Assembly: GCA_001787465.1 (NCBI GenBank)
Contig: MFXJ01000046.1
Span: 1 to 12,378 of the forward strand
Direction: 5' to 3'
DNA length: 12,378 bases
DNA from: Candidatus Peregrinibacteria bacterium RIFOXYB2_FULL_32_7
GTDB lineage: Bacteria > Patescibacteriota > Gracilibacteria > UBA1369 > GWF2-33-10
Made by a program: the position numbers and the translations under genes. This document shows, one piece after another, positions 2,251-12,358 of the stretch. The notes beneath the pieces were generated by a model, which had not been told where the DNA came from, did no database searches, and saw nothing but the letters and a program-made list of their open reading frames with translations. Numbering within the stretch: the stretch's first letter is position 1; each line of letters opens with the position of its first letter.

Positions 2251-3171
2251 TCAGCTATTTATCCACACTACCTCCTTCTCCTTCAAAAACCAAGTCATTT
2301 GCCTTTTAGCATAATGCCTTGTTTCTTTTTTTAATAAATCTTTCGCCTCATCAAGCGTCATTTCGTTGTTTAAAAATTTTGCAATTTGAAGATAACCCAA
2401 ACTCGACATTGATGGTAAATTACGATCGTATTTTGAAAGTAAATATTTTGTTTCTTCAATCAAACCATTTTCAATTTGCTTATCAACACGCTTATTAATT
2501 CTGTCATATAAAACTTCACGAGGCCAATCGATGGCAAATTTTAGAATATGATATTTGTCATTCTTGTGAGAGCAGGAATTTTTGTTTTCACTGCCAACTG
2601 CCATCTGCAAACTGCCAACTCTTTCTATCCCCCTTATCACATACCTCAAATTATTCGGATGAATTTTCATTGCTTCTATTTCATCCAAAGCTTTTAATTT
2701 TTCCCAAACATATTCTTTCCCATATTGCGAAGCTTCTTCTTCAAGTTGTTTTCTTAATTCCCAATTTGGCGGAGTTGCTCCTAATGTAAAATTTTCAATT
2801 ATCGCTCTAATATAAAGTCCAGTTCCACCAATAATAAATGGGATTTTATTTCTTTTATAAATATCGAAAATTTTCTCCTCAGCCAATTTCTTGAAATCAA
2901 AAGTTGTGAAATTTTCATTTGGCAAAACAACATCTATTAAATGATGTGGAATATCCTGCATTTCTTTTTTTGTGATTTTTGCAGTCCCAATGTCCATTTC
3001 TTTATAAATTTGTCGTGAATCAGCAGAAATAATTTCACCATTAAATTTTTTCGCAAGTTTAATACTCAATCCTGTTTTACCTGAAGCGGTTGGACCTAAA
3101 AGCACTATTAAAGGAATTTTCTCTTTTGGAATATTTTTTAAAAAACTTGAAATCAAATCTTCTGGATTCAT
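2251..3171 (-). CDS. miaA: tRNA dimethylallyltransferase MiaA
   Basis: MiaA transfers a dimethylallyl group to N6 of A37 in tRNAs reading UNN codons, the first step of i6A/ms2i6A synthesis. The 306 residues show the complete family pattern: P-loop GPTASGKT (26-33), ADSRQIYKEMDIGTAK (50-65) with the catalytic Asp51, PHHLIDV (75-81), GGTGLYIRAI (115-124), LRYVIRGIER (175-184), DWPREVLYDRINKRVD (215-230) and the C-terminal RHYAKRQMTWF. The length is normal. The loop at about 185-204, between the ALEI-like helix and the KFAIDWPRE strand, is a lineage-specific insertion encoded partly by a 7-bp repeat array (2590-2620). The gene ends in TGA, which supports the standard bacterial code. A TATAAT box lies about 40 bp upstream. 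Confidence 0.97.
   Translation of the reverse strand: MNPEDLISSFLKNIPKEKIPLIVLLGPTASGKTGLSIKLAKKFNGEIISADSRQIYKEMDIGTAKITKKEMQDIPHHLIDVVLPNENFTTFDFKKLAEEKIFDIYKRNKIPFIIGGTGLYIRAIIENFTLGATPPNWELRKQLEEEASQYGKEYVWEKLKALDEIEAMKIHPNNLRYVIRGIERVGSLQMAVGSENKNSCSHKNDKYHILKFAIDWPREVLYDRINKRVDKQIENGLIEETKYLLSKYDRNLPSMSSLGYLQIAKFLNNEMTLDEAKDLLKKETRHYAKRQMTWFLKEKEVVWINS
2590..2620 (-). repeat. In-frame heptamer array inside miaA
   Basis: On the coding strand this is four consecutive 7-bp units, AGTTGGC, AGTTTGC, AGATGGC and AGTTGGC, followed by AGT. It encodes VGSLQMAVGS (residues 185-194). As 7 is not a multiple of 3, the same word is read in different frames in successive copies. It sits at a surface loop that varies in MiaA and looks like a spacer repeat that has entered the gene. 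Confidence 0.75.
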
Positions 3172-3209
3172 TATGCAACTTTAAAAAGCTTCTTAAATTT
3201 ACAGGAAAA

Positions 3210-3238
3210 ATTATACTCCTACGCTTTAATAATTTAAA
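3210..3238 (-). promoter_or_regulatory. Candidate miaA promoter (TTTAAA-17-TATAAT)
   Basis: The minus strand has TTTAAA (3233-3238), 17 bp, then a perfect TATAAT (3210-3215). Transcription would start near 3203, leaving about 32 nt before ATG 3171. The promoter lies in the left arm of the inverted repeat at 3210-3352, which may affect its activity. The -35 match is poor. Confidence 0.45.
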
Positions 3239-3352
3239 ATTGTATAATGCTACGAAGCTTTATAATATTGTTTATTTACCTTATAAAATAAATAATTAAG
3301 CTTCGGAGCATATACTACTTAATTTTAAAATTTAAAAGCGGAGTAGTATATC
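3210..3352. repeat. 143-bp imperfect inverted repeat (MITE-like or long hairpin)
   Basis: The left arm 3210-3260 and the right arm 3298-3352 are inverted copies of each other. The outer 32 positions match at about 25, the inner GCTACGAAGCTT (3249-3260) pairs with AAGCTTCGGAGC (3298-3309) at 11 of 12, and a 3-4 base gap lies between. The 37-nt centre is A/T-rich. Smaller perfect inverted pairs are nested in it: ATTATAC/GTATAAT at 3210-3216 and 3242-3248, and ATATACTACT/AGTAGTATAT at 3310-3319 and 3342-3351. It fills most of the gap between the unknown gene and miaA. No protein is encoded. No clear target-site duplication is visible, so mobility is unproven. Confidence 0.6.
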
Positions 3353-3376
3353 AATTTCAAAATTGTGATATTTAAA

Positions 3377-4981
3377 CTATTTTTTTCTCACAAACCTAAT
3401 CTCTTTAAAATTTTCAAAAACAAACTTAGGACTTTTCCGCTTACTATTATTTTTATACAAACTTTCTTTTTCACAAACAAAACCGCTACAATCACCAACT
3501 GGCACTTCTCTATCTTTTTTATTTATCAAAATAAACGAATTACCTTCCTGTATCCACCTATTAATTCTTTCAATTTCACATGGAAATATATCTTTACTTA
3601 AAATATGTATCGGTTCTGGAAGCGGCTTAGAAGATTCCACTTTTTGCTCTTGTTGTACATCATCTTTTGTATCTTTATCTCCTTCGCTTTCTGTTAAATT
3701 CACACCAGCAGCTTTTAACGTCAATTGATCTCCAAAAGTAACAGAATTATCAATGTCATCACTTACACGCTCAGGAGATCCACTACCAACAGCTACTTTT
3801 GGAACTACAGCATCGTTCCATTCACCCATTCTTTTTTCAGCCTCAGCTATAGACTTTACTGGTTTTTTAATAAATTTTATTCTCAATCTTTTAATTTGAG
3901 AGTTATCATTAAAACGAATCCATGTCATCTCTCCATTTCTCAATGCCACACAAATACGATTATATCTACCTGATTTTCCTTCTTCTTGTAATCTTAAAGA
4001 TTCTAAATTAGATAAAGTAACTTCTTGACCAGCTATTGGAGTATCTCTATCATACTTTCTTCCTGCTTTTTCTTCTATTTTATTCCAACTACCATTCAAT
4101 ACCATCCCTCCTTGACTTAACAATTGCATTAAAATACTTCGATAAGCCTCATGTCTTTTAGAATGACCACCAAAGAAACTACGTAAAAAATCATTTATAA
4201 CCATAGCATCTTCTCTGGACACAGTACCATGAACTTCACACGAAACCGAATCACGATCTTCACTAATTTCTGCAGGCTGAACTGCATCACTAGGCTTCAA
4301 TATTCTAATTGGAGATTCTAACTTTAAAGAAGAAAAAAAATCATCCCAATCTCGCCTTTGTAAATAATAACATTCTGTTCCTCCAGAACCAATAATAATC
4401 CGATCATAACCTTGAGTAATTAATCTATTCGCAACAAGTTTGAACCTATTAGCTAATATATATTTAGAGGCTTCCAGTAACCACTCTTGATTCTCTCCTC
4501 TATTACACAAGCAAGCCAACAGATCTTTTCCTGTTTTAATTTTTAAAAGTTCCTCTATTCTTAACGAACTAAAATAAGCTTCTTCTTTTCCAGCATCTCC
4601 ATCGCTAACCGCCACTCCACTTAACACGCGACTTACACTTTCTCTATATACTCCTGACTCCCCTGGAACAGACGCTTCACGGCACACCTGTCGTCTACCT
4701 CCTTCCATATATTGACCACCTAAAACCTTAGGATCAGTTAAATCACTACATCCAATAAATATATAAACAAATCCTAGATTATATAAATCATTGAGAATTT
4801 TTGTTATATCAATAGTCTCATTAAAATCTAAATTTATTTGCCTCCTTCCTCCATATCGAATTGTTATATTTCCGTTAGTCTTTCCATTTCTCATTATATA
4901 TTCAACAACTGATTGTAAATTAGATCTAGTTAACTGAAATTGCACTTCCTTCCAAGAACTTCTTAATTCTTCACAAGGCAT
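3377..4981 (-). CDS. Unrecognised 534-residue protein
   Basis: I do not recognise this protein. It is a long uninterrupted frame on the minus strand with no signal peptide and no membrane helix, so it is probably cytoplasmic. Residues 1-85 look like a compact alpha/beta domain (ITIRYGGRRQINLDF, then ILNDLYNLGFVYIFIGCSD). Residues 90-130 are Gly/Ser/Arg-rich and linker-like. A mixed helical region follows (about 138-220, with YDRIIIGSGGTECYYLQRRD), then a domain at about 250-385. Residues about 390-470 form an acidic, Ser/Glu/Lys-rich disordered linker, and a C-terminal segment (475-534) has four cysteines' worth of polar sequence ending in basic residues. The pentapeptide GGRRQ occurs twice (44-48 and 94-98). 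The 4590-4720 stretch is visibly richer in GC than its surroundings. The start at 4981 is the first ATG; there is no ribosome-binding site. It is probably transcribed alone. Confidence 0.7.
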   Translation of the reverse strand: MPCEELRSSWKEVQFQLTRSNLQSVVEYIMRNGKTNGNITIRYGGRRQINLDFNETIDITKILNDLYNLGFVYIFIGCSDLTDPKVLGGQYMEGGRRQVCREASVPGESGVYRESVSRVLSGVAVSDGDAGKEEAYFSSLRIEELLKIKTGKDLLACLCNRGENQEWLLEASKYILANRFKLVANRLITQGYDRIIIGSGGTECYYLQRRDWDDFFSSLKLESPIRILKPSDAVQPAEISEDRDSVSCEVHGTVSREDAMVINDFLRSFFGGHSKRHEAYRSILMQLLSQGGMVLNGSWNKIEEKAGRKYDRDTPIAGQEVTLSNLESLRLQEEGKSGRYNRICVALRNGEMTWIRFNDNSQIKRLRIKFIKKPVKSIAEAEKRMGEWNDAVVPKVAVGSGSPERVSDDIDNSVTFGDQLTLKAAGVNLTESEGDKDTKDDVQQEQKVESSKPLPEPIHILSKDIFPCEIERINRWIQEGNSFILINKKDREVPVGDCSGFVCEKESLYKNNSKRKSPKFVFENFKEIRFVRKK

Positions 4982-5035
4982 AATTTTAAAATTTTAAAAA
5001 ATTAATTTTTCTAACACACACGCATTTTAAAGTTT

Positions 5036-5067
5036 ATTATATTTGCAATTAATTCAAATTAAGTCAA
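5036..5067 (-). promoter_or_regulatory. Candidate promoter of the 534-residue gene
   Basis: On the minus strand TATAAT lies at 5036-5041, with TTGACT at 5062-5067. The spacing is 20 bp, longer than the optimum, so the -35 assignment is uncertain. Transcription would begin near 5029, about 48 nt before ATG 4981. It lies back to back with the rplJ promoter. Confidence 0.35.
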
Positions 5068-5080
5068 ATATTTTTTCTCC

Positions 5081-5109
5081 TTGACTTTAAAAGACATATC
5101 CTTTAAATT
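5081..5109 (+). promoter_or_regulatory. rplJ-rplL promoter (TTGACT-17-TAAATT)
   Basis: TTGACT (5081-5086), 17 bp, then TAAATT (5104-5109). The predicted start near 5115-5117 coincides with the first paired base of the L10 leader RNA, which supports the call. The -10 box is weak. Confidence 0.5.
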
Positions 5110-5114
5110 ATTTT

Positions 5115-5241
5115 GTGCGTCGTAGACAGCAGGTTGTTTCTTCTTAAAAAAAAGAAATTTAAAAAAGTTCCTGCCTAGACAAACAAATTAGTGAATCAAA
5201 ACCTTTTTTAGGTTCTACTTCGTTTGTCGTCTACCCCGCGC
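5115..5241 (+). promoter_or_regulatory. Ribosomal protein L10 leader RNA
   Basis: This is the binding site in the nascent message for the L10-L12 complex, used for autoregulation of rplJL. It contains the characteristic GTAGACAGCAGG ... CCTGCCTAGAC pair. Stems that can be read by eye: a closing stem, GTGCG (5115-5119) with CGCGC (5237-5241) and GTAGAC (5122-5127) with GTCTAC (5229-5234); GCAGG (5129-5133) with CCTGC (5170-5174); GACAAAC (5178-5184) with GTTTGTC (5222-5228), enclosing a small AACC/GGTT hairpin. Together they make a three-way junction in the 190-nt untranslated region ahead of rplJ. This matches the known L10 leader family of bacteria. Confidence 0.8.
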
Positions 5242-5255
5242 AAACGATTTTTTTT
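5220..5255 (+). terminator. Intrinsic terminator/attenuator in the rplJ leader
   Basis: TCGTTTG (5220-5226) pairs perfectly with CAAACGA (5241-5247), and eight T follow at 5248-5255. The loop is 14 nt. The left arm is the same strand that pairs in the GACAAAC/GTTTGTC stem of the L10 leader, and the loop contains the 3' strand of its closing stem. The leader fold and the terminator therefore cannot form together, which is the layout of a transcription attenuator. Confidence 0.55.
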
Positions 5256-5306
5256 AGTCCGCTCACATTTCACATAAACTTTCCAAACTTTCTAAACTAG
5301 AAAAAA

Positions 5307-5831
5307 ATGGCAATTTCACGTCAAAAAAAAGAATTATCTCTTACTGAACTAACTGAAAATATAAAAAAAGCAAAATCTGTAGTATTTACTAAATATGCAG
5401 GAACTTCTGTTGTTGATCTTACAAAATTACGCCGTAAAGCACGAGCCGAAAATGTCAAAATCATGATCGCTAAGAAAACTTTGATTCAAAAAGCCGCAAC
5501 AAAAAACGGTTATGAACAAATTCCAGAGAATATAATGGATGGGCCAATCGCCATTGCGTTTAGTCCTGATGAAGTTTGCGCCGCAAAAATTATCAAACTA
5601 TTTGGCAAAGAAACTGCAACAGTACAATTAGCAGGAGGATTAATGGAAGGCAAAATTCTTGACTTAAAAGCCATTAAATCACTTGCTGATTTACCTAGTA
5701 AGGAAGAATTGCTTGCACAATTTGTCGGTATGATTCAAAGTCCACTGAGAAATTTTGCCAGCCTTATCGCCAATCCTCTCGCTTCATTTGCAAGAGCCAC
5801 AAAAGCCTATGCCGAACAAAAAGAAAAATAA
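5307..5831 (+). CDS. rplJ: 50S ribosomal protein L10
   Basis: L10 anchors the L7/L12 dimers of the ribosomal stalk to 23S rRNA and bL11, and with them recruits translation factors. The 174-residue length is normal. Recognisable segments are SVVFTKYAGTSVVDLTKLR (24-42), KIMIAKKTLIQKA (51-63), GPIAIAFSPDE (79-89), GGLMEGKILDLKAIKSLADLPSKEELLAQ (110-138) and a C-terminal helix (about 148-170) that holds the L12 dimers. It follows the L10 leader by about 50 nt after the T-run. The start is preceded only by AGAAAAAA, a poor ribosome-binding site. It is cotranscribed with rplL after an 83-bp repeat-filled spacer. Confidence 0.97.
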   Translation: MAISRQKKELSLTELTENIKKAKSVVFTKYAGTSVVDLTKLRRKARAENVKIMIAKKTLIQKAATKNGYEQIPENIMDGPIAIAFSPDEVCAAKIIKLFGKETATVQLAGGLMEGKILDLKAIKSLADLPSKEELLAQFVGMIQSPLRNFASLIANPLASFARATKAYAEQKEK

Positions 5832-5837
5832 TAATTA

Positions 5838-5907
5838 CCAATTCCCAATTACTCTTTACTCTTTACTAATTACCCTTTCCCCTTTCCTAATTTCTAATTC
5901 CTAATTT
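5838..5907 (+). repeat. Ten consecutive degenerate heptamers filling the rplJ-rplL spacer
   Basis: From 5838 to 5907 the sequence divides without remainder into ten 7-bp units, each fitting C[CT][ACT][AT]TT[ACT]. Units include CTCTTTA twice in a row, CCCTTTC twice in a row, and CTAATTT with variants. The array occupies nearly all of the 83 bp between the two ribosomal genes, leaving only TATAATT before the rplL ATG, with no Shine-Dalgarno sequence. Adjacent identical units suggest growth by duplication of one or two units. Confidence 0.8.
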
Positions 5908-5914
5908 TATAATT

Positions 5915-6322
5915 ATGTCTGACGTACAAACACAAGACAAAATTGAGCTTTCAAAAGAAGAGAAAGCTGTGATCGACGCTCTTGAAAAGCTTAACATTGT
6001 GCAGGTTAACAATGTTGTTAAATACATGGAGCAAGCATATGGCATTTCTGCCGCCGCTCCTGTTGCTGTTGCCGCTGTTGCCGCTACTGCTACTGATGCC
6101 GCACCTGAAGAAAAAGCTTCTTATAATATCAAACTTACATCTTCTGGAGATAAAAAAATTCAAGTTATTAAAGTAATCAGAGAAGTAACGAGTCTTGGAC
6201 TTGGAGAAGCTAAAAAAGTAGCTGACGAAAATGGCATGGTAAAAGAGAACGTCGCTAAGAAAGAAGCTGAAGAAATTAAGAAAAAATTAGAAGAAGCTGG
6301 AGCTAAAGTTGAATTACAATAA
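5915..6322 (+). CDS. rplL: 50S ribosomal protein L7/L12
   Basis: This is the stalk protein that contacts elongation factors. At 135 residues it is slightly longer than usual. It has an N-terminal dimerisation domain (about 12-45, LSKEEKAVIDALEKLNIVQV), an Ala/Val-rich hinge (46-66) and the conserved globular C-terminal domain (68-135: YNIKLTSSGDKKIQVIKVIREVTSLGLGEAKK, ending EEIKKKLEEAGAKVEL). The usual PKPVKEG loop reads NGMVKEN here, a small departure. It is the second gene of the rplJL operon and is closed by a strong terminator. The ATG at 5915 has no ribosome-binding site; the heptamer array lies immediately upstream. Confidence 0.97.
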   Translation: MSDVQTQDKIELSKEEKAVIDALEKLNIVQVNNVVKYMEQAYGISAAAPVAVAAVAATATDAAPEEKASYNIKLTSSGDKKIQVIKVIREVTSLGLGEAKKVADENGMVKENVAKKEAEEIKKKLEEAGAKVELQ

Positions 6323-6340
6323 AGTTTTTCCCAACCCAAT

Positions 6341-6373
6341 AAAAAAACACTTTGAGTTTCAAGGTGTTTTTTT
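6341..6373 (+). terminator. Intrinsic terminator of the rplJL operon
   Basis: ACACTTTGA (6347-6355), loop GTT, TCAAGGTGT (6359-6367), nine pairs including one G-U, followed by a run of seven T ending at 6373. The A-run at 6341-6347 extends the stem and would let it work in both directions. From here to 6465 I see nothing but A/T-rich sequence. Confidence 0.85.
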
Positions 6374-6465
6374 ATATTTAAACCATATTTTTTAAAAAAA
6401 TCCATCAAAAACCTTTCTCAGTTTCTTACCAAAGCGATATCGATCTGGTCGGTTCTCTTTAAATG

Positions 6466-6474
6466 TGATAAAAT
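6466..6474 (+). promoter_or_regulatory. Extended -10 promoter of the pilus operon
   Basis: TGATAAAAT is an extended -10 (TGn, then TAAAAT at 6469-6474). No convincing -35 lies at 17 bp. Transcription would begin near 6481, about 29 nt before the first pilus gene. Confidence 0.45.
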
Positions 6475-6509
6475 ATATAGATTTATAAATTTTAAACACC
6501 TAATTTCAA

Positions 6510-7637
6510 ATGGATCCAAACTCCTCTAAAAACACCGAAGATATCTTCGCAAATCAAAACTCTACCCCTGAACAAAATAATGTTCAAAATGATGGTCAGG
6601 AGAAAGTTAAAGAAGAAAACAAGAAATCTATAAAAAAACATCCGTTTCCTAGCTTAATTTTAAAATTAATTATTCTAATAGGAATTTTCAGTTTTGCGTA
6701 TATGCAAACACAGCTTTCAGTCAATTTTTCCATTTTTGGAGTGAGCGTTGCCAAAGAAATACAAACTTTGGAAAAGGAACTTTTGGATAATCAAGCACAA
6801 ATTAATAAAATAAATTTATCAGTAGCGGTCGATAGCTTAAATTTTTTCGCACTCAAAGCTGAAGATTATTTATCTCACCTAGAACAAATCAATTCAAATT
6901 TTGTAACTAAAAATACAAAAGAAAAACTTTCAGCTAAATTGCCTGAAATAAAAAATGAGCTTAAAGTCTCAATAACCACAGCCAAAGAAGCTGTTACTGC
7001 AGAAAAAAGCTCAGGTAACATAAGCGAAGAGCAAGCTAAGAAATCAACAGAAGAAAAACTAACCGAAGAGAAATTAGCTTTAGCCTCCGAACTAAATGCG
7101 TCTGAAAATAAAGATGATGTTAGAAAAAAAATCCAAAATCTAAACGAAATCTTAAACTTACTTAATAACGATGATTTAATCGCTAAAATCAAATCCTTTG
7201 ATATCGAAAGTTTATCTGAAGAATCAATTAAAAGTCTACTTGAAAATATCTATTCACAACAAAACAATAAATTAACAACAATTTATAATATTGATAAAGA
7301 AAAATTAATTTGGTCAAACGTGATGCACGAAATCGAAATCGTAACAAAAGGCATAGACCCGCTTTATGGAAGCGCTTTATCACAAAATATAGGCCAAATT
7401 AAATATAATAGTTTTCAATTAGAAAAAGGTGAAAATGAGCAAGAAGATAAAATTATAGTCAATGGAACTATAACGACCTCAGATAGCAAAAATTTCAATA
7501 TTGCTTCGGATTTAATTGATTCATTTACTAATTCAACCTTATTTAGCGGAGCGAAAATGCGTTCTTTTAACAAGAAATTTGATGAAGAAAATCAATATAT
7601 TGGAAATTTTAATATCGAACTTACTTTTCAAAACTAA
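6510..7637 (+). CDS. pilN: PilN-like type IV pilus assembly protein with long coiled coil
   Basis: This is a probable inner-membrane alignment-complex protein of the type IV pilus. Layout of the 375 residues: a polar Asn/Glu/Lys-rich cytoplasmic tail (1-46), one membrane helix (about 47-66), a long Lys/Glu-rich helical region (80-262), then an alpha/beta domain (264-375). That last domain has the PilN pattern: WSNVMHEIEIVTKGI, a strand with IIVNGTITT, then IASDLIDSFTNSTLFSGAKM and a final NFNIELTF strand. PilN is normally near 200 residues, so the coiled region is an expansion. The usual INLLP-type PilM-binding peptide is absent from the tail. It is the first gene of the operon, 12 bp before the PilO-like gene. 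Assignment rests on topology, the C-terminal pattern and gene order. Confidence 0.65.
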   Translation: MDPNSSKNTEDIFANQNSTPEQNNVQNDGQEKVKEENKKSIKKHPFPSLILKLIILIGIFSFAYMQTQLSVNFSIFGVSVAKEIQTLEKELLDNQAQINKINLSVAVDSLNFFALKAEDYLSHLEQINSNFVTKNTKEKLSAKLPEIKNELKVSITTAKEAVTAEKSSGNISEEQAKKSTEEKLTEEKLALASELNASENKDDVRKKIQNLNEILNLLNNDDLIAKIKSFDIESLSEESIKSLLENIYSQQNNKLTTIYNIDKEKLIWSNVMHEIEIVTKGIDPLYGSALSQNIGQIKYNSFQLEKGENEQEDKIIVNGTITTSDSKNFNIASDLIDSFTNSTLFSGAKMRSFNKKFDEENQYIGNFNIELTFQN

Positions 7638-7649
7638 TTTTTAACTTCC

Positions 7650-8249
7650 ATGAAAAAAACACAAATAACCATCGGAGCAATTCTTACTTCTGTTATAGCA
7701 ATAATTGTAATAGGAGCAAATTTATACAATTTCCAAAAATTAGTTCAAGCAAAATCAACTTTAAAAAATTTAACAAATTCCAATATAGAATTAGAAGAAA
7801 ATTTAAATAATACTGAAGCTAAATACATTAAATTTAAAAATGATAATCAAACGGAACTTTTAAAATATTCTGAAAAATTCAATAAGATACTCCCCTCTGA
7901 TGAAGCCATCACTGATTTTAATAGAGAAATAGAAAATTTTTCAAACTCTCTGCATTCTTTATCAAATCCAATTTTTTTGGAAAAAATGACTTACGGCTCA
8001 TCAAAAAAACAAGAAAAAATTAATGGATTATATATAGTACCAGTTTCTTTAAGTTTCCAAGGAACAGATAAAAATTTTTATAAAATCATAGAATACCTCG
8101 AATCTTCAGGAAATTTAGAAAACGAAAGCCGGCTTCTAGAAATAACAAAAATTGCGATTAACTGGGAAGGAAAAGAATTTGAAAAAAGCGACATAGAACT
8201 TTATGACTTTGAAATAAATGTAAATATATATTTATACAGTAGTATTTAA
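7650..8249 (+). CDS. pilO: PilO-like type IV pilus assembly protein
   Basis: This is the partner of PilN in the periplasmic alignment complex (in a CPR cell, the space outside the single membrane). The 199 residues have PilO layout: a short basic start, a membrane helix (about 5-26), a coiled coil (about 33-75) and a ferredoxin-like domain (about 80-199). Landmarks are ILPSDEAITDFNREIENF (79-96) and the strand-helix VPVSLSFQGTDKNFYKIIEYLESSG. It follows the PilN-like gene by 12 bp and precedes the ATPase gene by 37 bp of heptamer repeat. Sequence conservation in PilO is low, so size, topology and position carry much of the weight. Confidence 0.75.
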   Translation: MKKTQITIGAILTSVIAIIVIGANLYNFQKLVQAKSTLKNLTNSNIELEENLNNTEAKYIKFKNDNQTELLKYSEKFNKILPSDEAITDFNREIENFSNSLHSLSNPIFLEKMTYGSSKKQEKINGLYIVPVSLSFQGTDKNFYKIIEYLESSGNLENESRLLEITKIAINWEGKEFEKSDIELYDFEINVNIYLYSSI

Positions 8250-8283
8250 TTCAAAATTCATAATTTATAATTCATAATTAAAA
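8249..8283 (+). repeat. Five heptamers between pilO and pilB
   Basis: The units ATTCAAA, ATTCATA and ATTTATA, then ATTCATA again and ATTAAAA, run head to tail and fill the intergenic gap, starting with the last base of the pilO stop codon. The unit differs from those in the other arrays of the window; only the 7-bp period is shared. Confidence 0.65.
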
Positions 8284-8286
8284 AAA

Positions 8287-9516
8287 GTGTCTACATACAG
8301 AGAAAATTTGCAAAATGCGATCATGGTCGGAAATATACCAGCCCTAGTTATTAGCATGATCAGTGATGCGGTTGAACAAAGATCAAGCGATATTCATATT
8401 GAACCAGGTAAAAATGTGATCCGAATTCGTTATAGAATTGACGGTGTTCTTAGAATTATCGTCGAGTATCCTCAAAATCTTCATCCTGCCGTTGTTTCAA
8501 GAATAAAAATCCTTTCTAACTTAAAAATAGATGAACAAAGAATCCCTCAAGATGGCAGAGCTCAAGTGACAACTGAAGATAATAAGGAACTTGATCTCCG
8601 TGTTTCGACCTTGCCAACAGTCAATGGAGAAAAAGTTGTAATGCGTATTCAAGACGAATCAAAAACCATACCGACTTTAGAACAATTAGGTATTGACGGC
8701 CAAGCTCTACAAAAAATTCAAAAAGCGTTACTCGATCCTAACGGCATTATTTTAACTACCGGTCCTACTGGATCTGGTAAAACCACTACTTTATATGCTT
8801 GTTTAAATATTTTAAATAAAGCTGACGTCAATATTTTAACAATTGAAGATCCGGTGGAAATACAAATGGAAGGATTAAATCAAAGTCAAACTCATGCTGA
8901 TATAGACTATACTTTTGCTACCGGACTCAGAACCGCTCTACGTCAAGATCCTGACATTATCATGGTCGGTGAAATCCGCGATAAAGAAACAATTAATATA
9001 GCTATTGAAGCTTCACTTACCGGACATTTAGTATTATCAACAATACATACAAATAGCGCAGTAGAGACTTTGACTCGTATTACAAACATGGAAATTCCAA
9101 GCTATTTAATGACCTCAACTATTCGAACTATTATAGCGCAAAGACTTGTCCGCAGATTATGTCCCGATTGTAAAAAACCATCATCAGTCGATCAACAAAC
9201 TTTGGAACAAATTAAACAAATCATTTCAAAAACTTCTCAAATTGATCAAAATATTTTACAAAACACTCAGTTTTTTGAACCAATAGGATGCGATAAATGT
9301 CATAATATAGGCTATATCGGACGAGTTGGTTTATACGAGATTTTGGATATGTCTGATAGTTTAAGAAGATCAGTTCTTGAAGGGAAATCCACTTTAGATA
9401 TAAAAGAACAAGCCATGCAAGAAGGCATGATTTCTCTAGAACAAGCCGGTTTAATCAAAGCAATTCAAGGCTTAACAAGCTTAGGCGAAGTTTATAGAGT
9501 CTCAAGCCATGGATAA
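8287..9516 (+). CDS. pilB: Type IV pilus assembly ATPase PilB, lacking the N-terminal domain
   Basis: This is the hexameric AAA-like ATPase that powers pilus extension. The 409 residues contain the GspE/PilB core: SDIHIEP (34-40) with IRYRIDGVLR, then Walker A GPTGSGKT (149-156), Asp box EDPVE (177-181), Walker B IIMVGEIRD (214-222), His box GHLVLSTIHTN (236-246) and the four-cysteine zinc site C292-C295 ... C335-C338. The zinc site marks PilB/GspE and argues against the retraction ATPase PilT. Canonical PilB has about 560 residues; the whole N1/MshEN-type domain is absent, as an in-frame stop (8275-8277) lies just upstream. The start is GTG at 8287, with no ribosome-binding site; ATG at codon 13 is an alternative. 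It overlaps pilC by 8 bp, implying coupled translation. Confidence 0.92.
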   Translation: MSTYRENLQNAIMVGNIPALVISMISDAVEQRSSDIHIEPGKNVIRIRYRIDGVLRIIVEYPQNLHPAVVSRIKILSNLKIDEQRIPQDGRAQVTTEDNKELDLRVSTLPTVNGEKVVMRIQDESKTIPTLEQLGIDGQALQKIQKALLDPNGIILTTGPTGSGKTTTLYACLNILNKADVNILTIEDPVEIQMEGLNQSQTHADIDYTFATGLRTALRQDPDIIMVGEIRDKETINIAIEASLTGHLVLSTIHTNSAVETLTRITNMEIPSYLMTSTIRTIIAQRLVRRLCPDCKKPSSVDQQTLEQIKQIISKTSQIDQNILQNTQFFEPIGCDKCHNIGYIGRVGLYEILDMSDSLRRSVLEGKSTLDIKEQAMQEGMISLEQAGLIKAIQGLTSLGEVYRVSSHG

Positions 9517-10816
9517 AACTCAATTTTCTAAACTAAATTTTTTAAACCAAAATATGCCTAAAGATTCAAAAATTAAAACCGAAGAAATTAAAAAAACCGA
9601 AGGAAATTCTGTTAGTTTTGACATTGAAGCTAATGAGGAAGATAAAAAAGCTGAAGGACAAGAACAGAAAAAAAAGATCAATTTATCTGATATTTTTAAA
9701 AAATATAAAGAAAGCGATGATCCGCTAAGGGATATTTTTAAAAAAATAAATGAATGGGTTGAAGATTTAAACACCGTAAAAACAAAAGAAAAAGCAACAT
9801 TTTTTCGACTACTTTCTGTTATGATCAATGCTGGAATTCCGATTGTAGAATCTTTAAACGTTTTAGCTAACCAAACTAAAAATCCAAAACTTAAAAGGAT
9901 CATTATCAATATGGCCGATGATATAAAAAATGGTAACAAACTTTCAACCGCAATATCAAAACACAAAGATGTTTTTAATGAATCTGACATAGGAATGGTG
10001 TCAGCCGGAGAGTTCTCAGGTAGACTTAATAATATCTTACAAGATATCGCTAATGACACGGAAAAAAGCGCGGCTTTGAGAGCAAAAATAAAAGGCGCTT
10101 TAACTTATCCAATGGTAGTACTCTTAATATTAGCCGCGGCAATTGTAGCTTTAATGACTATGGTTGTGCCTCAAATTATGGGGCTTTTCTCAGGAAGCGA
10201 TATAGAACTTCCTTTAGCTACAAAAATAATGGTAGGACTTAGCGAATTCTTACAACAACATTTATTTTTAGTAATTTTAATACCAATATTCCTAATAATT
10301 TTCGTAAAAATAATTAAAAAAACTACACTTGGAAAATTTTATTTTGATGGACTGATGTTAATTTTACCTATTTTTGGACAACTAAATAAAAAAGCCTCTT
10401 TAAGTCGATTTAGCCGAATTTTAAGCAATTTAATGAAAAGCGGAGTTTCAATCGTCGAAGCTTTGCAAATTAGCGCTAATGGTATTGGCAATGAAGTTTA
10501 TAAAAAAAGAATAATGATTTCTTCACGCGATACTGCTCAAGGAATACCACTCGGACAAAATCTTCGTGGCAATGAATCTTTATTCCCATCAATGGTGGTA
10601 AGCATGATTGCAATCGGTGAACAAACAGGAGAAATAGCGAATATAATGGACAAAATAGCTGATTTTTATGAAGAAGAAGCAGATTTAATGAGCCAAAGCT
10701 TATCAAAACTTTTAGAACCTTTAATCCTTGTTTTTGTCGGCTTAAGTGTAGGTGGAATTGTAGCCGCGATCATGCAACCAATTATCTCATTAACCGATAT
10801 TGCTGATAAAATCTAG
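9509..10816 (+). CDS. pilC: Type IV pilus inner-membrane platform protein PilC
   Basis: This is the membrane platform on which PilB acts during pilin assembly. Two T2SF (GspF) repeats are clear in the 435 residues: about 94-217, with GIPIVESLNVLA and the GEFSG signature (167-171), and about 297-420, with GVSIVEALQISA and GEQTGE (370-375). Membrane helices lie near 201-222, 250-270 and 401-425. The first 90 residues are a charged, Lys/Glu-rich tail (KKTEGN ... EEDKKAEGQEQKKK), not the short conserved N-terminus of standard PilC, and may be disordered. The ATG lies inside the pilB 3' end (ATGGATAA overlap). It is the last gene of the operon. Confidence 0.95.
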   Translation: MDKTQFSKLNFLNQNMPKDSKIKTEEIKKTEGNSVSFDIEANEEDKKAEGQEQKKKINLSDIFKKYKESDDPLRDIFKKINEWVEDLNTVKTKEKATFFRLLSVMINAGIPIVESLNVLANQTKNPKLKRIIINMADDIKNGNKLSTAISKHKDVFNESDIGMVSAGEFSGRLNNILQDIANDTEKSAALRAKIKGALTYPMVVLLILAAAIVALMTMVVPQIMGLFSGSDIELPLATKIMVGLSEFLQQHLFLVILIPIFLIIFVKIIKKTTLGKFYFDGLMLILPIFGQLNKKASLSRFSRILSNLMKSGVSIVEALQISANGIGNEVYKKRIMISSRDTAQGIPLGQNLRGNESLFPSMVVSMIAIGEQTGEIANIMDKIADFYEEEADLMSQSLSKLLEPLILVFVGLSVGGIVAAIMQPIISLTDIADKI

Positions 10817-10820
10817 AAAC

Positions 10821-10849
10821 GTGATTCGTGATTCGTGATTCGTGATTCG
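10821..10849 (+). repeat. Tandem heptamer GTGATTC x4
   Basis: Four perfect copies of GTGATTC plus one base start 5 bp after the pilC stop. A diverged inverted form (GAATCAC, then AAATCAC) lies at 10886-10898, so the array has one arm on each side of a hairpin. Confidence 0.9.
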
Positions 10850-10892
10850 TTTTTATTAGAAAAATTTAAAATTTTTCTAAATTTCGAATCAC
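10842..10892. repeat. Long hairpin between converging pilC and PH genes
   Basis: GTGATTCG (10842-10849) pairs with CGAATCAC (10885-10892). Inside it, TTAGAAAAATTT (10856-10867) and AAATTTTTCTAA (10869-10880) form a perfect 12-bp A/T-rich inverted repeat around one base. It lies where two converging genes end, so it may stop transcription from both sides, but no clean U-run follows on either strand. Confidence 0.6.
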
Positions 10893-10906
10893 AAATCACT
10901 AACCCT

Positions 10907-11500
10907 CTACTTCATCAATCTCCTTTGCTGAATCATTTCAACTAGCAAATTTTTTAATGCATCATGATTTTTAAACGCATTTTCTTGAACCATTATACTT
11001 TGTTGTTTTAAAATATGTCTTTCAACATCTTTTGGTCGCATCGCATCTTTTAAAATAAAAGGTTCTCCGCTACCGACTCTTTGCACAGTAACATCTCCAA
11101 AAGAAAGCAAAGTTTGCGCCACTCCTTTTTTACTCCAAGTAACACCTTCAATATAAGTATATTCTATTCTAGTCGAGGAATTATCAAAAAATCCATTCCA
11201 TTCAACCACCAAAAGAGAGACATTAGTAACAAGCAAAGCATCAAAATACCAATCACAAACTTTATATAAAACAAAAAAGCTTCCAACTGCCGCCCAAACC
11301 ATCATCGGTATTTTCAAAATCGGAAAAAGAAACCAAATAAAAAATGGCATAAAAAGCCCAAAAAAAACTCTTTTTAAAATAACTTTATAATGTATCCAGA
11401 TATGTTTATGTGCGACATAAAGTATTTTCTCATTTTCCTCCTCTAAATAATTTTTAAAAAAGAAATTTCCAAATATTCGCGATAAGTATTCAAAAAACAT
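10907..11500 (-). CDS. Membrane protein with bacterial PH domain
   Basis: A 197-residue protein with two closely spaced hydrophobic helices (about 42-60 and 64-82) followed directly by a bPH_2/YdbS-like domain (about 84-160). The domain pattern is WYFDALLVTNVSLLVVEWNGFF, IEYTYIEGVTWSKKGVAQTLLSFGDVTVQRVGS; small membrane proteins of this kind are common in CPR genomes. The C-terminus (160-197) is a charged helix. The role is unknown; such domains are thought to bind lipids or partner proteins at the inner face of the membrane. It converges on pilC and is divergent from lepB. A good extended -10 lies 25 bp upstream of its ATG. Confidence 0.8.
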   Translation of the reverse strand: MFFEYLSRIFGNFFFKNYLEEENEKILYVAHKHIWIHYKVILKRVFFGLFMPFFIWFLFPILKIPMMVWAAVGSFFVLYKVCDWYFDALLVTNVSLLVVEWNGFFDNSSTRIEYTYIEGVTWSKKGVAQTLLSFGDVTVQRVGSGEPFILKDAMRPKDVERHILKQQSIMVQENAFKNHDALKNLLVEMIQQRRLMK

Positions 11501-11524
11501 ATAAAAATCTAAAAATCTAACTAT

Positions 11525-11533
11525 ATTGTAGCA
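11525..11533 (-). promoter_or_regulatory. Extended -10 promoter of the PH-domain gene
   Basis: The minus strand reads TGCTACAAT, an extended -10 with TACAAT. Transcription would start near 11518, about 17 nt before ATG 11500. The -35 position falls in the heptamer array at 11542-11569 and has no recognisable match. Confidence 0.5.
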
Positions 11534-11541
11534 GGATAAAA

Positions 11542-11569
11542 AAAAATGAAAAATGAAAAATAGAAAATG
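11542..11569 (+). repeat. Four heptamers upstream of lepB
   Basis: AAAAATG twice, AAAAATA, then GAAAATG: four 7-bp units in the divergent gap between the PH-domain gene and lepB. The remaining 75 bp before lepB hold a weak TTGATC-17-TAACTT promoter candidate (11589-11617) that I do not list separately. Confidence 0.65.
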
Positions 11570-11644: not shown

Positions 11645-12358
11645 ATGAACGATATTGATAAAAATAACGAACTAAAAGAACCTATAGAAGAAAAATCTTA
11701 TCTATCTAATATCTTACTATTCTTCTTAGATATATTAGCGAATGCTACGATTATCATTATTCTAGTTTTACTGATTCGCACTTTCATAATCGCTCCATTT
11801 CAAGTTTATGGACCATCAATGTGCAATGTCCTTAATTATTACGATTCAACATGTAAACAAGGGCCTGGAGAATATTTAATTATCAATAAATTTATTTACA
11901 AAAATTATGCCATTAAAAAAGGACAGGACCCTAAACGCGGAGATATTATTGTCTTCAAGGAGCCAACTAAACAAGAAGAATATTATATAAAACGAATAAT
12001 AGGTATTCCCGGCGACACACTAATTCTCGAAGATGGTTTTGTATACATAAAAAACGATCAATTTGAAACACCAATAAAACTTAATGAAACTGAATATTTA
12101 AATGAACTAAATTTTGGCAACACCAAAGCATTTAGAAACGATTTAAACGAATTTCACGTCCCAGAGAATGCTTATTTTGTTATGGGAGATAATAGAACGG
12201 CAAGCGCTGACAGCCGACGCTTATTTAACGAAAACGATCTTGAAAATGGTGCTTTTATATCAAAAGATTTAATAGTTGGCAAAGCTTGGACCGTTATTTG
12301 GCCGTTAGCAAACATAAGAATATTAGAAGATCCGGATTATCAAGTATTTGATAAATAA
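11645..12358 (+). CDS. lepB: Signal peptidase I
   Basis: This is a membrane serine protease that removes signal peptides from exported proteins, using a Ser/Lys dyad. The 237 residues show a cytoplasmic tail, one membrane helix (about 22-49), box B VYGPSM with catalytic Ser58, box D KRGDIIVF (97-104), then YYIKRIIGIPGD with the general-base Lys116, and box E FVMGDNRTASADSR (178-191). Between Ser58 and box D there is an insertion with Cys60 and Cys70 (SMCNVLNYYDSTCKQGPGEY) in place of the usual SMxPTL. Both cysteines lie outside the membrane and could form a disulfide; this variant is familiar from CPR signal peptidases. No Shine-Dalgarno site precedes the ATG. Nothing can be assigned in the last 20 bp. 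Confidence 0.95.
   Translation: MNDIDKNNELKEPIEEKSYLSNILLFFLDILANATIIIILVLLIRTFIIAPFQVYGPSMCNVLNYYDSTCKQGPGEYLIINKFIYKNYAIKKGQDPKRGDIIVFKEPTKQEEYYIKRIIGIPGDTLILEDGFVYIKNDQFETPIKLNETEYLNELNFGNTKAFRNDLNEFHVPENAYFVMGDNRTASADSRRLFNENDLENGAFISKDLIVGKAWTVIWPLANIRILEDPDYQVFDK

Follow-up and report, generated by a model that had tools for sequence, protein, structure and literature searches.

Heptanucleotide tandem arrays with genus-specific words, and a heptamer-flanked hairpin element, in a family of Peregrinibacteria

Heptanucleotide tandem repeats are known from filamentous Cyanobacteria, where they are called STRR. A wider preference of bacterial simple repeats for 7-nt units was reported by Mrazek (2007), as cited in the available parts of PMC4679880 and PMC4692102, where slippage tied to the contact length of the polymerase is given as the proposed cause. 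As described there, these long simple sequence repeats show an excess of 7-nt units, lie mostly between genes and occur in scattered lineages, all of which makes them the closest general parallel to the arrays reported here. Two more narrowly defined families are also similar. The TAACTGA repeats of Beggiatoaceae, Cyanobacteria and Bacteroidetes (available part of PMC4679880) likewise form heptamer arrays, often shortly before starts; a single word prevails in the Beggiatoaceae genome, where direct repeats of related heptamers are seldom seen, and the same source mentions larger assemblages of mixed heptamers, as well as 7-nt indels between strains, in some other bacteria. The GGGAATC repeats of Xanthomonas (available part of PMC4692102) are heptamers too, often occur as inverted pairs and vary in length and sequence between two species, all as in our case; they consist of one G-rich word type, and 83% of them keep the same gene context between the two species. 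Finally, the Rickettsia palindromic elements (Ogata 2000, 2002, according to the accessible part of the review PMC10969869) are small hairpin-forming sequences that sit in frame in unrelated metabolic genes, as does an element described below. Among the open-licence papers listed in our literature searches there is no report of a heptamer excess for this group, and the accessible part of PMC4060949 mentions nothing on heptanucleotides. So far as the citing papers describe the repeats of Mrazek, ours differ in that the excess maps to one family of a CPR order, the words are specific to the genus, and the word has changed at an orthologous coding array; the last two features, together with elements in coding DNA that have heptamer flanks, are new, the heptamer excess itself being already known elsewhere.

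The window analysed here is the whole 12,378-nt stretch of contig MFXJ01000046.1, from a genome that is 74% complete (G000). An earlier sequence-only reading had claimed five arrays with a 7-bp period in it, four of them between genes. All five are present, with slightly altered coordinates, and the single exception to intergenic placement lies inside miaA. This array (2590..2620, minus strand; 4.4 units, 83% matches) is imperfect and in frame, with coding-strand units GTTGGCA GTTTGCA GATGGCA GTTGGCA GT, and occupies a variable region of the miaA ORF (2251..3171, minus strand), an IPP transferase according to its Pfam IPPT match and an alignment with PDB entries. The second array (5833..5906) fills the gap downstream of rplJ (5307..5831, plus strand; ribosomal protein L10, Pfam Ribosomal_L10), and its word shifts along the array with the phase kept (AATTACC, AATTCCC, CTTTACT, CTTTCCC, AATTCCT). 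The ORF that follows (5915..6322, plus strand), with homologues in 36 of 40 genomes, its own included, we take to be rplL-like from its position after rplJ. An AATTCAT array (8248..8279) fills the gap before an ORF at 8287..9516 (plus strand), presumably a secretion ATPase of the GspE/PilB type, which has matches in all 40 genomes, its own included, and served as an anchor for comparing relatives; its best named matches include two Candidatus Peregrinibacteria sequences (66% and 65% identity). The CGTGATT array (10820..10850, plus strand; 4.4 units) lies between convergent ORFs; it is the only perfect repeat of the five, and its word is common to a dispersed element. The fifth array (11542..11568, AAAAATG) is imperfect and lies in the divergent gap before a lepB-like signal peptidase ORF (11645..12358, plus strand; Pfam Peptidase_S26). 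At a score of at least 13 the window has four segments of period 7, and within the range of 2 to 30 only periods 14 (three segments) and 21 (one segment) occur besides; one period-14 segment (9516-9551) has no period-7 partner, and the miaA array, which makes up the five, scores 12. The window further contains an AbiE-type pair (896-2238), in which an AbiEi-like ORF with a weak Pfam match under the curated cut-off precedes an ORF for an AbiEii nucleotidyl transferase, and a 534-aa ORF (3377-4981) without a Pfam match at E 0.001.

The excess of period 7 extends over the genome. In a G000 sample of 465,688 bp, comprising the odd-numbered contigs C1 to C79 (40 contig stretches, at most 20 kb each) and the window, we found 68 period-7 arrays with a score of at least 12, against 1.0 expected (mean of three Markov-3 draws). 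The next periods are 9 and 15 (11 arrays each), 8 and 12 (7 each) and 6 (3), and no period outside the multiples of 7 exceeds 11 arrays; counts for periods 14 and 21 fall from 36 to 9 and from 18 to 8, respectively, once arrays of shorter period are removed. Among exact arrays of at least three copies, 23 have period 7, three each have periods 5, 6 and 8, and none has period 9, as compared with no exact period-7 array in one Markov-5 draw. Exact period-4 arrays number 22, against 18 in the Markov-5 draw, and no unit length from 2 to 6 bp is clearly overrepresented. The sequence-only reading had staked its proposal on period 7 exceeding periods 5, 6, 8 and 9 genome-wide, and this is what we observe (68 arrays against at most 11). 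Both this excess over neighbouring unit lengths and the mainly intergenic placement (of the 68 arrays, 42 lie in gaps between ORFs, 24 within ORFs and 2 at the ends of contigs) agree with the description of heptanucleotide long simple sequence repeats. Placement was assigned with a crude ORF caller, which marks 90% of the DNA as coding and which puts 28 of the 29 arrays of periods 9, 12 and 15 into ORFs, against the 24 of 68 for period 7. With the similarly crude starts of this sample, Shine-Dalgarno-like motifs were found before 9 of 200 starts and in 34 of 200 cases about 100 nt further upstream.

To delimit the trait taxonomically we used a set of 40 genomes, including G000 itself, in which the only other member of the family is a 96% complete genome of a sister genus (G001). 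This genome has 90 period-7 arrays in 718 kb and 36 exact arrays; the densities are 0.146 arrays per kb in G000 and 0.125 in G001. Twenty genomes from other families of the same order, sampled at 40 kb each, gave three arrays and no exact array in 800 kb, where the G000 density would predict about 117. Low GC content does not explain the excess, since the equally AT-rich relatives G003 (30% GC) and G006 (32% GC) have 0 and 2 arrays, respectively, in 40 kb each. In a member of another family (G027) a weaker TTACTAA array (score 11) lies before rplL. In 80 pooled loci of diverse bacteria (1.34 Mb) we found 18 period-7 arrays, distributed over 10 loci, a few of which are rich in them; periods 6 and 12 also reach 18 arrays each, and the pooled loci therefore have no general excess of period 7. 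The excess is confined to the two genomes of the family among the 22 sampled from the order, and the 7-bp process is not general to CPR. Five of the 18 arrays from diverse bacteria lie within 21 kb in one locus from Omnitrophota (L209), with inverted pairs among them by eye.

The two genera share the period and largely differ in the words. The 68 arrays of G000 have 31 consensus words, so that no word dominates in the way described for the TAACTGA and GGGAATC families, and the 36 arrays of the first G001 sample have 19; five words occur in both sets, all of them with at most one G or C. The comparison of units was restricted to words with at least two G or C (29 of the 68 arrays in G000, 37 of the 90 in G001), all others being dropped beforehand. 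Within G000, 66 of 406 pairs of arrays share a unit (permuted mean 10.6, maximum 20), and within G001 69 of 666 do (mean 7.1, maximum 19); between the genomes the figure is 10 of 1073 (mean 12.6, maximum 32). With all arrays kept, there are 306 sharing pairs in G000, where the control has 129.1, and 175 in the first G001 sample, where it has 38.3. Sharing thus exceeds the control within genomes and not between them, i.e. the GC-containing words form a separate vocabulary in each genus. The word of the array at 10820-10850 is a clear case: its doublet CGTGATTCGTGATT has 22 matches on 15 G000 contigs (overlapping matches counted) and is absent from all 39 relatives searched. Words also drift within single arrays while the phase is kept, e.g. 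TTCGTGA, TTCGTAA and TTCACAA in one G000 array (L024). The earlier description of the arrays' words as unrelated therefore has to be given up in part, because words recur within G000 far above permuted controls. Its other suggestion, that a process or constraint acts on the period and not on the sequence, is supported by the comparison, given that two sister genera share the excess without sharing words and that an orthologous array has swapped its word and kept its period.

That orthologous array is the one in miaA. In G000 and G001 it consists of four units in an open frame, and unit positions 3 and 5 differ between the genera in all four, i.e. the word has changed in place; the array is identical at 20 of 30 positions, against 795 of 885 in the flanks (P 5e-4). 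Thirty loci were compared, from 38 genomes with a MiaA match, and a heptamer array is found in two of them; the 28 loci outside the family score at most 7 there. The G001 word (AGTAGTC type) recurs in other G001 arrays. A search of the 74%-complete G000 for its own word (AACTGCC doublet, at most one mismatch) gave no second occurrence, so that copying into this array from another one would have no visible source. Since any slip by one 7-bp unit would put miaA out of frame, copying of the whole array is an attractive conjecture at this site. Two partial miaA matches lie on either side of the full G001 gene (G001:C22:25387-25578 and 30670-30750; 86% and 78% identity), which suggests local rearrangement.

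Heptamers with different words in the two genera, read by eye, also fill the linker of an ORF (L001 396-2795) that consists of two fused domains which we take to be Ddl-like. The gap before the ATPase gene is made up of AATTCAT units in G000 and contains AATTTTG units in G001, with AAAATTC common to both in reverse orientation. Among 83 orthologous gaps (score at least 11), arrays are present in G000 only in 15, in G001 only in 11 and in both in 6, which is no more than expected by chance (Fisher P 0.35); the result is similar after an identity filter of 45% that drops nine gaps (6 of 74, P 0.20). The notion that orthologous gaps keep their arrays above chance is thus not supported. Four of the six gaps with arrays in both genera share no unit. 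The other two have AAAATTC in common; one is the gap before the ATPase gene, and the other, at L051, shares AAAATTT as well. The Xanthomonas GGGAATC repeats differ from this case, in which word types change and the joint presence of arrays in orthologous gaps stays at the level of chance. In G001 the gap upstream of rplL (L090), which holds heptamers in the window, carries a GTTAAA series with an 8-bp period (score 9).

The reading that we favour, and consider somewhat more probable than its negation, is a clade-limited process of duplication in 7-nt steps combined with copying between loci, with genus-specific words and a dispersing element flanked by AATCACG. In the family, short stretches of tandem DNA would constantly form, grow and be replaced by steps of 7 nt. 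Point changes would produce new words, which would then spread through the array and also from one array to another, giving rise to the genus-specific set. Words of the AATCACG family flank a GC-rich hairpin core, and the composite would disperse and can come to sit in frame in genes. We infer that the 7-nt step corresponds to replication slippage or template switching, and the spread between arrays to ectopic copying; it seems to be the step size, rather than the sequence, that is inherited. A more specific version, in which an inherited property of DNA copying in 7-nt steps, frame-preserving copying of arrays between loci and concerted evolution lead to genus words that flank gene-entering hairpins, is a tentative proposal, more doubtful than credible at present.

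Several enzymes were considered as the source of the step, and none of them emerged as a candidate. MutS is present in both G000 and G001, and missing mismatch repair is rejected as the cause. Its presence fits the lack of an excess of short units, although it does not single out 7; slippage that occurs despite MutS should also permit loops of 5, 6 and 8 bp, none of which is clearly enriched. The Y-family polymerase domain is absent from G000 and G001 and from 20 of the 38 other genomes, i.e. its absence does not track the trait, and its loss is likewise rejected as a cause. The reverse transcriptase domain is absent from both genomes and from 29 of the 38 others. The Y1 transposase (PF01797), which marks genomes with REP/RAYT systems, has no match in G000 (74% complete) or G001 (96% complete) and is absent from 25 of the 38 others, matches being found in 13 of the 40 genomes.

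One alternative is selection on function, in which a protein or an RNA structure reads the 7-nt register, the arrays serving as leaders before starts or as terminators; we regard it as unlikely. For 15 of the 25 arrays in co-directional gaps, the end lies at most 11 nt from the downstream start, either inside the gene or before it (a raw count), and for the TAACTGA repeats translational regulation was proposed by MacGregor (2015), according to the available part of PMC4679880; however, such gaps often barely exceed the length of the array, so that nearness to the start is partly forced. Folding also speaks for function in one place: the RNA of 10817-10906, between the convergent ORFs of the window, folds with -26.1 kcal/mol (z -5.68), its inverted heptamer arms (10825-10847 and 10880-10902) being 83% complementary, with a perfect 12-bp hairpin inside the arms (10856-10867 and 10869-10880) and without a GC-rich core. 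An inverted 9-mer partner lies no more than 150 bp away from 31 of the 90 arrays in G001 (control mean 7.5, maximum 14), but the corresponding excess in G000 is small (12 of 68, control 7.1, maximum 11). Against functional selection stand the differences of words between genera, the chance-level presence of arrays in orthologous gaps and the occurrence of arrays in coding DNA as well.

We find similarly little reason to expect that the arrays simply go back to a small number of mobile repeat families that have spread, the heptamers being their decaying flanks, even though one dispersed composite element is evident in G000. Of 13 loci with the 16-nt array CGTGATTCGTGATTCG, eight, including that in the window, have units of opposite orientation nearby, and five have a GC-rich core, whose length is about 31 or 55 bp. 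As an exact string, the core has eight copies at seven places in G000 and none in G001; in the 38 other genomes it has one isolated match (G033), without heptamers, and no core is found at L002. AATCACG-type heptamers in the same orientation lie on both sides of the core at six of the seven places, and an inverted CGTGATT-type array lies further out at four. As DNA, the long core folds with -13.7 kcal/mol (z -3.08). At one element-bearing gap (L058 4239-4333) the corresponding gene matches abut in G001, as mobility would lead one to expect. In-frame copies are found in ugd (two in tandem), queA and a P-type ATPase gene, none of them with the inverted array; the three ORFs match chains of UDP-glucose dehydrogenase, QueA and Ca-transporting ATPase. 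The stretch encoded by the element is unaligned or gapped with respect to solved structures in ugd (residues 136-159) and in the ATPase (residues 390-417), and in queA the insert falls somewhere within residues 61-116, a segment in which its surroundings are unaligned as well. Read directly, (AATCACG)n is free of stop codons whichever frame is taken, and TGA occurs in its complement, a difference that would favour one of the two orientations inside genes.

A hairpin core dispersed at unrelated loci and in-frame insertion in conserved genes (three ORFs) are features of Rickettsia palindromic and MITE-like elements. The likeness to the Rickettsia elements is one of description; ours differs in its heptamer flanks and its 31- or 55-bp core, and has only three coding places with the core. 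The statement of the sequence-only reading that no repeat family is spreading accordingly needs qualification, inasmuch as the CGTGATT doublet is dispersed in G000 and the core adjoins 5 of the 13 loci. As a general explanation, though, mobile families fall short: one period with as many as 31 words in 68 arrays is not expected of a single family, the core is found at only a minority of the CGTGATT loci, and G001, which lacks the exact core, has the 7-bp excess with other words. Chance in low-complexity AT-rich DNA, or an assembly artefact, is hardly credible: most words are indeed AT-rich (39 of 68 with fewer than two G or C) and both genomes are fragmented assemblies, but the Markov nulls, with about one array and no exact array, refute chance, the AT-rich G003 and G006 are almost devoid of arrays, the remaining 29 words have at least two G or C, coding arrays keep the frame, and two separate assemblies agree.

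The words were also sought in viral contigs. Three of them occur in 8, 3 and 5 stretches, against 4, 1 and 2 in one permuted control each, a fourth was found in 27 stretches (a raw count), and the element core in none; a global word set common to viral contigs is suggestive at most. Perfect (AATCACG)n arrays, the word of the window, are present in seven high-GC viral contigs (L328-L335, GC 0.60-0.66), one of which (L329) also carries AGAGCTG units, a G001 word. The 27 stretches L344-L370 contain triplet arrays of AGTAGTC; by eye, some of these have inverted partners, which is also the case in G001.

The reading of 7-nt-step duplication with copying between loci bears on a problem of wider interest, as the bacterial preference for 7-nt repeats is in print with a hypothesis only, judging from those parts of PMC4679880 and PMC4692102 that cite Mrazek (2007). 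A pair of sister genera that shares the trait but not the words, within an order whose sampled members are largely without it, makes the question of the 7-nt unit testable. Moreover, the elements lying in frame illustrate one way in which conserved enzymes of reduced genomes gain additional peptide stretches from repeat DNA.
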